Assembly (NCBI RefSeq): GCF_003634275.1
Contig: NZ_RBWY01000004.1
Location: forward strand, 124,001 to 188,000
From: Orbus hercynius
GTDB lineage: Bacteria > Pseudomonadota > Gammaproteobacteria > Enterobacterales > Orbaceae
Length of the DNA stretch: 64,000 bases
Direction: 5' to 3'
Below are positions 10,810-14,749 of this stretch, in pieces. Made by a program: the position numbers and the translations under genes. Within the stretch, counting starts at the first letter, position 1. Each line of letters begins with the position of its first letter. The notes under the pieces are model-generated. The model worked only from the letters and a program-made list of their open reading frames with translations. It made no database searches and was not told where the DNA came from.

Positions 10810-10897
10810 TGGCGGTGAGGAAGGGATTCGAACCCTTGATACGTTGCCGTATACACACTTTCCAGGCGTGCTCCTTCAGCCACTCGGACACCTCACC
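10810..10897 (-). tRNA. tRNA-Ser (anticodon GGA)
   Basis: An 88-base type II tRNA with a long variable arm. The acceptor stem GGTGAGG pairs with CCTCACC, the anticodon loop is CTGGAAA (anticodon GGA, reading UCC/UCU), the T arm contains GGTTCGAATCC, and the 3' CCA is encoded. It is almost identical to the E. coli serine GGA tRNA. It stands alone, with its own promoter just upstream on the minus strand. Confidence 0.97.
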
Positions 10898-10914: not shown

Positions 10915-10943
10915 ACTATAATGGTGATAAACAAATAGGTCAA
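10915..10943 (-). promoter_or_regulatory. Promoter of tRNA-Ser with GC-rich discriminator
   Basis: On the minus strand TTGACC (10943-10938), a 17-base spacer and TATAGT (10920-10915), followed by a GC-rich stretch (ATGCGCC). This is the layout of stable-RNA promoters that are under stringent control in gammaproteobacteria. It places the tRNA start about 10 bases into the primary transcript. Confidence 0.8.
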
Positions 10944-10979: not shown

Positions 10980-11069
10980 TTAGTGGCTAACAACAACACT
11001 ACCAAAAATAGTTAGCATAACAAGCACAGCAACGACAACTGTTAAAGATAATTTTAAATTAGTAGACAT
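10980..11069 (-). CDS. cydH: Cytochrome bd small subunit CydH (YnhF-like), 29 residues
   Basis: A very short gene, easily missed, coding for a single transmembrane helix. It matches E. coli YnhF (CydH/CydY) in length (both 29 residues) and in the MST-LK-SL start, hydrophobic core, central Gly and C-terminal His. In E. coli this peptide is the fourth subunit of cytochrome bd-I oxidase and sits against CydA. The ATG at 11069 follows GGAG at 8 bases; an ATG two codons upstream is too close to it. It starts 11 bases after the prc stop, so it is probably cotranscribed with proQ-prc. The cydAB genes are not in the window. Confidence 0.8.
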   Translation of the reverse strand: MSTNLKLSLTVVVAVLVMLTIFGSVVVSH

Positions 11070-11080
11070 GATCATAACTC

Positions 11081-13186
11081 CTATTTTATTTCAACATCTT
11101 GTAAAATGTATAACATATCAGTATCTGACGGAGATAGAGATGATTTAGCTGGTATATAATATTGAGAGAAATCTAATAATATTTCTACCGCTTCATCCAA
11201 ATAAGCATCAGGCATTTTGAAATCTTTTGGCATCTCATCTAACGTTTTAATTTCAGCTAAATTAGCCCGTTTTAAACGTTCATTCATTCTTAGCAGTGTT
11301 TTACTATCATTTTGTTTTTGTTCGGCTTCTCGTACCGCTTTATTTAACGAAACGACATATAAATGATCTTTTTTCGCATTATAATCAACAATATTTTCTT
11401 CGATATAATTAAATTCAGGGGAAAGTTTAGCTCTAGCTAAATGTGATTTAATCAACTGAGGTAAGACTGAATTAACATCGAAAAATATTGGATATTTAGC
11501 CGCAACAACGCTATCCCAAGGTAAAGCATTATCTAAAAAGCGCTCACCGGTTTCATCAACATATTGTAGTGTGCTCATTTCCAAATCAGGTTTAACACCT
11601 TTAAGCTGAGTACTCCCACCATTAATACGGTAAAATTTTTGAATAGTATATTGCACGCCACCTAATTCTGGCCAATCAGGATGAATCATGGCATCAATTG
11701 GATAAGCAATATTTCTCGACGTTTGCACCGTACCTTTACCATATGAGTTTTCACCAACAATAATAGCGCGGCCATAGTCTTGTAATGCAGCTGAAAAAAT
11801 CTCTGAAGCTGATGCACTGTGACGATTGATCATTACCAAAATTGGCCCCTGATATTCAATATTAGAATCTTTATCGTCATAAACTGCCAATTTTTGCATG
11901 TTATCTTTTACCTGAACAACGGGACCCTTTTCAATAAATAGCCCGGTCAATGAGATAACTTCAGCTAATGATCCGCCACCGTTATTACGTAAGTCGATAA
12001 CAATACCTTTCAAGTTTTTTTGATTGGCCTCAGCAAGTAACTGAGCAACTTTTGCTGTTAATCCAATGTAAAAACTTGGAATATCAATCACACCAACATC
12101 ACCACGTGATGTACTGATAATTGACAATTTTGCTTCTCGGTCTTCAAAATGAATTTTATCCCGAGCAAGTTCAATCACTTTTGGCTGACTATTATTACCT
12201 GCAGGTAATATTTCTAACTGAACTATGCTACCTTTAGGACCTCGAATTTTCTCAACAATATCATCCAATCGCCAACCGATCACATCTTCGACTGGTTTAC
12301 CTTTCTGACCAACACCAATAATACGATCACCAACCGCTAATTGCTTACTTCGTTCAGCTGGGCCACCGGTTACAAAAGACACAATCCGAGTATAATCATC
12401 ATCTTGAGTTAAAGTGGCACCAATACCTTCAAAAGATAAGCTCATCTCTGAATCAAAATCACGTTTAATGCGAGGGGCTAAATAGCTGGTATGGGGGTCA
12501 ATTTCTCTGGCAAACGCATTCATAAATACTTGAAATGCATCCTCAGGTTTAGTTTGGATTAACGTTCGTAATATACGATTATATCGTTTTGATAAGATTG
12601 TTCGAATTTCATCCTCATTCTTACCACTTAAAGCTAAACTGAGTTCATCATATTTGACTTTCTTACGCCAGAACTCATTGAGTTCCTCTTCTGAAGTTGG
12701 CCAAGCCATGTCTTCTCGCTTAAAATCAATTGACTCATCAACGGTAAAATCCATCGGTTGAGCTAAAAGCGAAAGCGCATATTGATAACGTGCAAAGCGT
12801 TTCTTTAATGACAAATTATAGATATCAAAAGCAGTACTTAGATCGCCATTACGAAGATTTTGGCCAATTTGCGTCTGTTTTACACGAAATGAATCAATAT
12901 CACTCTGAATAAAAGTCGCTTTACTGCTATCTAACAATTTGAAATAACGATCAAAAATTTTAGATGAAAAAACACCATCTAAATTAAAATCACGAAAATG
13001 AGATTGCGTAAAATAATTAGTCACACGACGTGCAACAACACTATGGGTTGACTCTGGCTCTAATGTCGGTAGCTCATTAATGTTGTAATCTTTAGCTTGC
13101 GCAAAGTTATTTATTAATAATATGGCGACAAAAATTATCCCGAATAATCGGGATTTATCAGATAAACAGCGCATGATATTCTTCAT
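11081..13186 (-). CDS. prc: Tail-specific (C-terminal processing) protease Prc
   Basis: Periplasmic serine protease that degrades SsrA-tagged and misfolded proteins and trims cell-wall hydrolases and penicillin-binding protein 3. It has a signal peptide (residues 1-32, ending AQA), an N-terminal helical region, a PDZ domain near residues 245-320, and an S41 domain with the catalytic serine in NRHSASASEIFSAAL and lysine in GENSYGKGTVQ. The 701 residues compare with 682 in E. coli. It lies 24 bases behind proQ on the same strand, as in E. coli, and is followed at 11 bases by cydH. Confidence 0.96.
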   Translation of the reverse strand: MKNIMRCLSDKSRLFGIIFVAILLINNFAQAKDYNINELPTLEPESTHSVVARRVTNYFTQSHFRDFNLDGVFSSKIFDRYFKLLDSSKATFIQSDIDSFRVKQTQIGQNLRNGDLSTAFDIYNLSLKKRFARYQYALSLLAQPMDFTVDESIDFKREDMAWPTSEEELNEFWRKKVKYDELSLALSGKNEDEIRTILSKRYNRILRTLIQTKPEDAFQVFMNAFAREIDPHTSYLAPRIKRDFDSEMSLSFEGIGATLTQDDDYTRIVSFVTGGPAERSKQLAVGDRIIGVGQKGKPVEDVIGWRLDDIVEKIRGPKGSIVQLEILPAGNNSQPKVIELARDKIHFEDREAKLSIISTSRGDVGVIDIPSFYIGLTAKVAQLLAEANQKNLKGIVIDLRNNGGGSLAEVISLTGLFIEKGPVVQVKDNMQKLAVYDDKDSNIEYQGPILVMINRHSASASEIFSAALQDYGRAIIVGENSYGKGTVQTSRNIAYPIDAMIHPDWPELGGVQYTIQKFYRINGGSTQLKGVKPDLEMSTLQYVDETGERFLDNALPWDSVVAAKYPIFFDVNSVLPQLIKSHLARAKLSPEFNYIEENIVDYNAKKDHLYVVSLNKAVREAEQKQNDSKTLLRMNERLKRANLAEIKTLDEMPKDFKMPDAYLDEAVEILLDFSQYYIPAKSSLSPSDTDMLYILQDVEIK

Positions 13187-13210: not shown

Positions 13211-13834
13211 CTAAAGTACAATGTGGTCTGATGTTACTGACAATTCCATACCAGATGACACTTTGACTTTAATGCGTTCTTTATCAATACTCGAAATAAC
13301 CGCTAAGACCGCTTTGCTACCAAGCATAACTTTAACCGCACAACCGGTTTGCAAAGCCGTGATATCTACAGGCTGTGAAATTTTACTGGAATTCTTTTTT
13401 ATTACAGCTTTGGGTGAAGTATTCACTCGCTCACGTTCATGTTTTAATTTAGGCATATTCACACGAGAGGGCTTATCTTTCTCAACAGTTTTACGATTCG
13501 CTTTTGCTTTTTCTTTACTTTCTTTTAACTGGGCTTGGGCATGCTCGGCTTGCTCTGGCGTAATGACTTCGCAAGGCTGACCATCTAAATCAACTCGATT
13601 TGCACCAGTTTTAAGGCAATACAGATACCGCCAACTAGCCGTATACGAACGTAATACTGAACGCAACTTTGTTTTACTTAATTGCTCATCATCCGCTAAG
13701 CGCTCAGCTAAATCTTGAAAAATGCCAACTTTGAGTGGCTTAGCCTCACCCTCAATACTAAAACACTGAGGAAAACGATTAGAAAGATATACGATAACTT
13801 CTTTACTACTTTTTAATTCTGGCTGCTTATCCAT
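13211..13834 (-). CDS. proQ: RNA chaperone ProQ
   Basis: FinO-domain RNA-binding protein that stabilises and pairs many small RNAs and 3' ends. The FinO domain covers about residues 5-115, with SSKEVIVYLSNRFPQCF and LRSYTASWRYLYCLKTGA. A basic, disordered linker follows, then a small C-terminal Tudor-like domain ending in HIVL. I chose the ATG at 13834, which follows GGAA and aligns with the E. coli start, giving 207 residues against 232; the linker is shorter. Longer in-frame starts exist up to 13858. It leads the proQ-prc unit. Confidence 0.94.
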   Translation of the reverse strand: MDKQPELKSSKEVIVYLSNRFPQCFSIEGEAKPLKVGIFQDLAERLADDEQLSKTKLRSVLRSYTASWRYLYCLKTGANRVDLDGQPCEVITPEQAEHAQAQLKESKEKAKANRKTVEKDKPSRVNMPKLKHERERVNTSPKAVIKKNSSKISQPVDITALQTGCAVKVMLGSKAVLAVISSIDKERIKVKVSSGMELSVTSDHIVL

Positions 13835-13954
13835 TGATAATTCCATTACAAATAACAACTAGTATTTAATATAACTCGAAACCATGGCTTAAAGTATATC
13901 CTAGCTTAAGCCTTTAGCAAATAAATATTAATCAAGAAAATGTTTTTCAATAAA

Positions 13955-14323
13955 TTATTCATTCTCAGTGTCAGCTTGTTCTTTAACAAAACTGACTAAT
14001 TCTTTGACGCCATTTCTCATTAACCAAACCATCACAGCCTCTTGTTCATCACTTTTTAATCTTAAAAATGCTGATGTCCAAAGTTGCAGTGGTTCAACTG
14101 GCGTGATGGTATAAGCCGCAGGAAACTCCTGAGCATGGATCAAGTGTGATTTAACAAAATCAGGTAAACTATCAAAATGATATTCAATTGCTTTACCTTG
14201 TACACCACTACGTTTTCGACTTTTCCAACCTTCTACCCGTGCTTTGCGATTAATGCCTTGAATTGTTGATGGCAATCCGTCTATCTCTGTTAATTCTTTT
14301 GATGAATACCATATTTTTGCCAT
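13955..14323 (-). CDS. Mu c-repressor-like DNA-binding protein
   Basis: A 122-residue protein with an N-terminal winged-helix domain of the kind found in the phage Mu repressor c and in the MuA transposase N-terminus: KIWYSSKELTEIDGLPST, then VEGWKSRKRSGVQGKAIEY, ending near residue 60. The rest is short and helical (WTSAFLRLKSDEQEAVMVWL) and recalls the Mu repressor C-terminal region more than a transposase. No catalytic domain is present, so it cannot transpose. It faces away from a Ner-like gene across 168 bases holding repeats, the same polarity as c and ner in Mu. The cellular role is unknown; I infer a transcriptional switch. Confidence 0.75.
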   Translation of the reverse strand: MAKIWYSSKELTEIDGLPSTIQGINRKARVEGWKSRKRSGVQGKAIEYHFDSLPDFVKSHLIHAQEFPAAYTITPVEPLQLWTSAFLRLKSDEQEAVMVWLMRNGVKELVSFVKEQADTENE

Positions 14324-14491: not shown

Positions 14492-14749
14492 ATGGGGAAT
14501 TCATCTATAGACTGGCATGCAGCAGATATTATCGCCGCATTAAAGAAACAAGGTTTAACACTATCAGGATTATCTCGTCAATCAGGCCTTAGTTCTTCGA
14601 CATTAAGTAATGCCTTAGTAAGGCCCTGGACAAAAGGGGAGCGGATCATTGCTCATGCACTCGGCCTAAAACCTGAGCAAATATGGCCTAGCCGTTACAT
14701 CAACCGTATCAATAATAAACCCATAATAAGAAACTTACGAAAAAAATAA
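14492..14749 (+). CDS. Ner-like / SfsB (Nlp) winged-helix regulator
   Basis: An 85-residue DNA-binding protein of the Ner family: DWHAADIIAALKKQGLTLSG, then LSRQSGLSSSTLSNAL as the helix-turn-helix, then KGERIIAHALGLKPEQIWPSRY. In phage Mu, Ner represses early and repressor transcription. The E. coli chromosomal homologue SfsB (Nlp) affects maltose-gene expression. The ATG at 14492 follows AAGGAAA at 7 bases. It is divergent from a Mu c-like gene and followed by hdeD on the same strand after about 155 bases. Family assignment is firm; function in this organism is open. Confidence 0.85.
   Translation: MGNSSIDWHAADIIAALKKQGLTLSGLSRQSGLSSSTLSNALVRPWTKGERIIAHALGLKPEQIWPSRYINRINNKPIIRNLRKK

Follow-up and report, generated by a model that had tools for sequence, protein, structure and literature searches.

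A probable cydH gene follows proQ-prc in Orbus hercynius, an arrangement kept across the Orbaceae

The 64,000 nt stretch of Orbus hercynius DNA examined here (positions 124,001 to 188,000 of contig NZ_RBWY01000004.1; hereafter, the window) carries on its minus strand genes proQ and prc, in the same order as in E. coli, followed by a very short frame and by a gene for tRNA-Ser (Table 1). The short frame is intact from 11069 to 10980, with 29 codons plus the stop, and its deduced product is MSTNLKLSLTVVVAVLVMLTIFGSVVVSH. The start codon, ATG, occupies 11069-11067, 11 nt 3′ of the prc stop codon, and the stop codon, TAA, occupies 10982-10980. We prefer this start because it is 8 nt away from a suitable AGGAG and because relatives also give 29 codons; the same two features disfavor an alternative in-frame ATG at 11075, which would lead to a product of 31 residues. 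The plus-strand reading of 10980-11069 was rejected because it contains stops. The first-pass annotation of this DNA had proposed a gene here, behind proQ-prc, without indicating its strand: its coordinates were right, the strand is minus, and the position is borne out by the two neighbors, which are encoded on the same strand and score over the curated cut-offs of their models. The start of proQ at 13846 is our choice, and the longest frame opens at 13858 with a TTG. The promoter-like site between the short frame and the tRNA gene is likely the promoter of tRNA-Ser.

Table 1. Positions, in the window, of genes and sites in the proQ-prc-cydH region.
Feature	Position	Strand	Basis
proQ, RNA chaperone, upstream of prc	13211..13846	(-)	NF003434, 251.6 bits (cut-off 127)
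prc, tail-specific periplasmic protease, directly upstream of cydH	11081..13186	(-)	NF008388, 920 bits (cut-off 825); 53% to E. coli Prc
Ribosome-binding site of cydH, AGGAG	11078..11082	(-)	Sequence; overlaps prc stop codon (11083-11081)
cydH (ynhF, cydY), probable 29-residue single-helix subunit of cytochrome bd-I	10980..11069 (stop codon included)	(-)	NF033411, family conservation, hydropathy
Promoter-like site, TTGACC-17-TATAGT, between cydH and tRNA gene	10915..10943	(-)	Consensus scan
tRNA-Ser (GGA), next gene downstream of cydH	10810..10897	(-)	ARAGORN on the window

The product of the short frame matches the NCBIfam model for CydH (NF033411) along positions 1-29 of 29, with 37.1 bits against a cut-off of 30, and no other match of this model appeared in the genome at E ≤ 10. 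It aligns without gaps to E. coli CydH (also CydY or YnhF; sequence from NC_000913.3), to which it is 38% identical; both have 29 residues, start with MST and end with His, as the first-pass annotation had noticed. Its hydropathy profile corresponds to one membrane helix after a short polar start, as in the E. coli protein, with a maximum mean over 19 residues of 2.81 (2.53 in E. coli CydH). Additionally, the window contains 18 frames that open with ATG and have exactly 29 codons, and only this one begins M..[DNE]L[KR], a pattern that we derived from the family. Judging from sequence comparison, we consider that this frame is very probably cydH of O. hercynius (probability around 0.93), in agreement with the identity first proposed for it. 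The first-pass annotation added that such genes usually escape annotation, a remark that goes beyond our data; NCBI provides a curated model of the family, over whose cut-off this protein scores. The peptide did not pass any Pfam model, and, when used alone as a phmmer query on PDB chains, it failed to retrieve E. coli CydH, the hits being limited to chains of histamine receptors with E ≥ 0.13; we rejected these and the PsbI look-alikes as helix noise, since they were below cut-offs or at E 0.13 and worse.

The frame could alternatively be a chance or non-coding open reading frame, or an extension of prc, given that it is so short and hydrophobic and that look-alikes such as PsbI appear at E 0.11 and 0.035, under their cut-offs. 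We find this scarcely credible, because the peptide scores over the curated cut-off of NF033411, its length is fixed in 43 genomes of the family and all 43 copies are preceded by a ribosome-binding site (AGGA, GGAG, GAGG or AAGG); as for an extension of prc, Prc ends before the frame in 42 of these 43 genomes, and in the remaining one it shares a single base with the start codon of the frame.

The family set comprised 44 genomes from five genera, including Gilliamella, Frischella and Orbaceae records. Rather than being broken in close relatives, the frame is intact in all the genomes with a readable prc end: exactly 29 codons follow prc in 43 of the 44, and in the other one, G043, the contig ends inside prc. 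Model NF033411 retrieved 42 of the 44 genomes at E ≤ 0.01; the curated cut-off was exceeded in 33, and the copies under it were assigned by their place, length and alignment. Our own CydH model of 15 rows matched 43 genomes, and G022, missed in the NCBIfam search, was found with it. Residues M1, K6, F22 and V26 are invariant in the 43 copies, L9 is conserved in 42 and G23 in 40. Pairs of the 42 distinct cydH copies accumulate 9166, 5813 and 11238 differences by codon position; dN/dS, usable for 394 out of 903 pairs, has a median of 0.44; sequence constraint is thus moderate, and length constraint is complete in this set. The downstream region is also shared, with a TTGA...TATAGT site behind cydH in all 43 copies and the tRNA-Ser motif TGTCCGAG, located by motif search only, 64-109 nt behind it. 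Hence CydH itself is a known protein family, and its gene lying behind prc is a family-wide arrangement. The literature searched, which contained few subscription papers, yielded no description of cydH behind prc across the family and no paper dealing with CydH and prc together.

Outside the family, the position of cydH is different. In E. coli (NC_000913.3) the gene sits between ydhP and purR, as opposed to the place behind proQ-prc and before tRNA-Ser that it occupies in Orbus. From a draw of 149 genomes of relatives, searched with NF033411 at E ≤ 0.01, matches came from 12 genomes that are not members of the family, 10 over the cut-off and two, G073 (with two places) and G115, below it. We fetched 13 CydH-like places from these 12 genomes, each with 1.5 to 2.5 kb of flanking sequence; a second, weak place in G088 was not included. 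Gene prc was near none of the 13 places within these flanks, and purR was near four of them, as in E. coli; with the kinds of genes assigned by eye, cydH is flanked by one outer-membrane-type and one patatin-like gene in the four loci of family f22, and beside a sensor-kinase-like gene in the two loci of family f26. Among the loci seen, cydH is thus apart from cydAB, in a place that varies between families. With our 15-row model at E ≤ 0.1, matches were obtained in 24 genomes that do not belong to the family. In 11 of these the match reached E 1.4e-4 or better; in the remaining 13 (E 0.001 to 0.09) it was partial and short, in some cases containing stops, and we did not count these as CydH. 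In a class-wide draw of 369 genomes, at E ≤ 0.001, CydH was found only in the Orbus genome itself, so that it is either rare beyond a few families or too short for detection there. The two CydH-like frames of G073 (C1:1448956-1449042 and C1:1537922-1537993, loci L054 and L064) are around 89 kb apart and score 29.1 and 23.1 bits, below the cut-off; they could possibly derive from a duplication.

In the window, cydH lies close to prc, its ribosome-binding site overlaps the stop codon of prc, and no terminator-like site separates both genes on the coding strand. These features suggest that a single transcript carries proQ, prc and, at its end, cydH, which we consider likely. In the 43 copies of the family, prc and cydH are separated by -1 to 184 nt (median 29 nt), so that most of these gaps could hardly accommodate a promoter; in this respect, and differently from E. 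coli, the Orbus gene probably lacks a promoter of its own. Conversely, cydH could be transcribed from a promoter of its own located within prc, toward the 3′ end, with the present place of cydH being an inherited accident and its neighbors being unrelated to it in expression or function. The different neighbors of cydH in separate families (purR, or those in f22 and f26) fit this alternative, and there is a weak promoter-like site in the end of prc (11112-11083); nevertheless, such sites in the region number 14, close to the 12.0 expected from shuffles, and the gene order is maintained in 43 of 44 genomes from all five genera. An accidental place has an appreciable chance of being right, even if we do not favor it.

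Still another explanation for the conserved order is a functional linkage, with Prc and CydH participating in the same step of assembly or quality control of cytochrome bd. Its one argument is the family-wide gene order, against which it must be weighed that prc and cydH are far apart in E. coli, that prc was absent from every flank fetched outside the family and that the two do not coincide in any paper of the literature searched; we deem it very improbable. The first-pass annotation had suggested that the location ties a respiratory subunit to a periplasmic protease: this stands with respect to gene order and, as argued above, a common transcript is likely, but we found no functional tie.

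A search for FNR boxes with one mismatch found 10 in the window, where 7.2 were expected; the nearest to cydH is inside prc (11826-11839), and there is none in the window within 1.7 kb upstream of proQ. These counts are near chance and, therefore, we draw no conclusion from them. There is also an FNR-type box with one mismatch, TTGATTATTGTCAA, in the gap that precedes cydA (L062:6650-6663).

The genome does contain the cytochrome bd-I genes on which the assignment depended. Genes cydA (525 aa) and cydB (380 aa), whose products pass their Pfam models, are on contig C1 (G000:C1), behind what by eye are sucC-sucD-like genes, whereas cydH is on contig C4 of this draft assembly (2.36 Mb); it is thus outside of the cydABX operon, as occurs in E. 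coli, where cydX is within the cyd operon and cydH is not. A second candidate CydA in the same genome was rejected, with 18.2 bits against a cut-off of 26.2. The Orbus CydA is E. coli-like: it aligns with E. coli CydA through the long Q-loop and is closer to it than AppC in helix 1 (43 vs 34 of 45 residues identical to E. coli CydA) and helix 9 (34 vs 27 of 45), but this advantage extends to the whole alignment (358 of 521 vs 313 of 514 aligned residues identical). Residues His19, Glu107, His186 and Met393, which we take to be positions of note in the E. coli protein, are all kept in Orbus. The alignment likewise places the same residues at E. coli positions Glu74, Glu99, Leu101, Ile144 and Glu445, which are named in three works on these oxidases (PMC6853902, PMC8951039, PMC8585947).

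Behind cydB there is a 34-residue CydX-like frame, MHYFFWVAITAAASLLSVVIGLWIDRKIDEKKVD (L062:9520-9624, G000:C1), without matches in Pfam (E 0.01) or NCBIfam (E 0.001); CydX seems to be too divergent here for the models, and a pattern of our own found CydX-like frames behind cydB in two of six further genomes of the family. CydX, AppX and CydS are, like CydH, small single-helix subunits of bd oxidases, but they differ from it in sequence and, according to PMC8951039, in their location on the opposite side of CydA.

CydA was matched in the 44 genomes of the family (partially in G043) and in all the 54 genomes with a CydH match in the draw of 149. This co-occurrence has little weight and does not imply that CydA requires CydH, because 129 of the 149 genomes contain CydA and 75 of these are without a CydH match. 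A haem-copper oxidase (PF00115) was not found over the cut-off in any of the 44 family genomes, and two weak matches contained stops. These data agree with CydH serving the only oxidase of the family, as does a survey of 95 genomes of Gilliamella, which are bee-gut members of the family, where no quinol-using, oxygen-reducing complex other than bd is reported (PMC11325843).

According to published work, CydH sits in a cleft between helices 1 and 9 of CydA (PMC8951039) and blocks a channel to haem b595 (PMC6853902), while no such subunit was detected in bd-II, where haem b595 is left accessible (PMC8585947). We compared CydA between families with and without detected CydH, using 38 sequences grouped under 21 family labels, CydH being present under 6 of these, and five segments with boundaries set by eye. 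The strongest difference was in helix 9 (461-505, E. coli numbering), with 0.339 vs 0.268 in shuffled sets, a value that was reached by 15 of 1000 label shuffles, which are uncorrected and involve families related by descent. The difference in helix 1 was reached by 104 of 1000 shuffles (89 to 267 over diverse choices of rows), and those of the remaining three segments by 572 of 1000 or more. The main set left out AppC and the second CydA copies from genomes with CydH (L121, L124, L127, L129 and L032), a decision taken after the result of an earlier comparison and which favors the helix 9 reading, because, of the left-out copies compared, L121, L124 and L127 resemble E. coli CydA less than do those retained; it also left out L101, L102, L117 and L118, with borderline CydH, and gave G073 and G124 labels separate from those of f6 and f22, respectively. 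The helix 9 value was reached by 11 of 1000 shuffles when repeating the analysis with the same rows, by 10 without the two split labels, by 28 after including the second copies and AppC, and by 55 after adding the borderline rows as well. In families with CydH, positions 478-480 of helix 9 are mostly I-C-G. These comparisons are suggestive of a link between CydH and helix 9 of CydA, and this helix might be of use in predicting the fourth subunit, although the signal is weaker with other choices of rows.

By analogy with E. coli bd-I, and as a consequence of its membership of the CydH family, the Orbus peptide probably binds CydA and acts as a cap for haem b595. The single-helix membrane peptide would dock on CydA of the sole cytochrome bd oxidase detected, covering the cleft that would otherwise open haem b595 to the membrane, and oxygen would then reach haem d by another channel. 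With its gene at the end of a putative proQ-prc-cydH unit, the supply of CydH would follow that unit and not the separate cydA-cydB operon.

E. coli CydH is made under low oxygen and keeps its formyl-methionine, as described in PMC6853902, which also proposes gene cydH as a marker of an E. coli-like mechanism of bd oxidases. It is conceivable, although we consider it unlikely, that in the Orbaceae, where bd was the only oxidase in our searches, cydH left oxygen control for that of proQ-prc, with the cap always supplied, and that CydH and helix 9 of CydA coevolved to the point that the CydA sequence reveals the fourth subunit. The occurrence of CydH in a fixed place across the family offers a simple natural system for testing the function of the fourth subunit, and the pattern in helix 9, if it holds, would predict which oxidases bind CydH.

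Beside proQ, at the other end of the cluster, a minus-strand gene of the window (13955-14323) codes for a protein of 122 residues that contains a Mu transposase-type DNA-binding domain (PF02316) and is also YfeC-like. A plus-strand gene (14492-14749) codes for an HTH_35 regulator (PF13693), presumably Ner-like; this pair could possibly represent remnant or domesticated regulators of a Mu-like phage.
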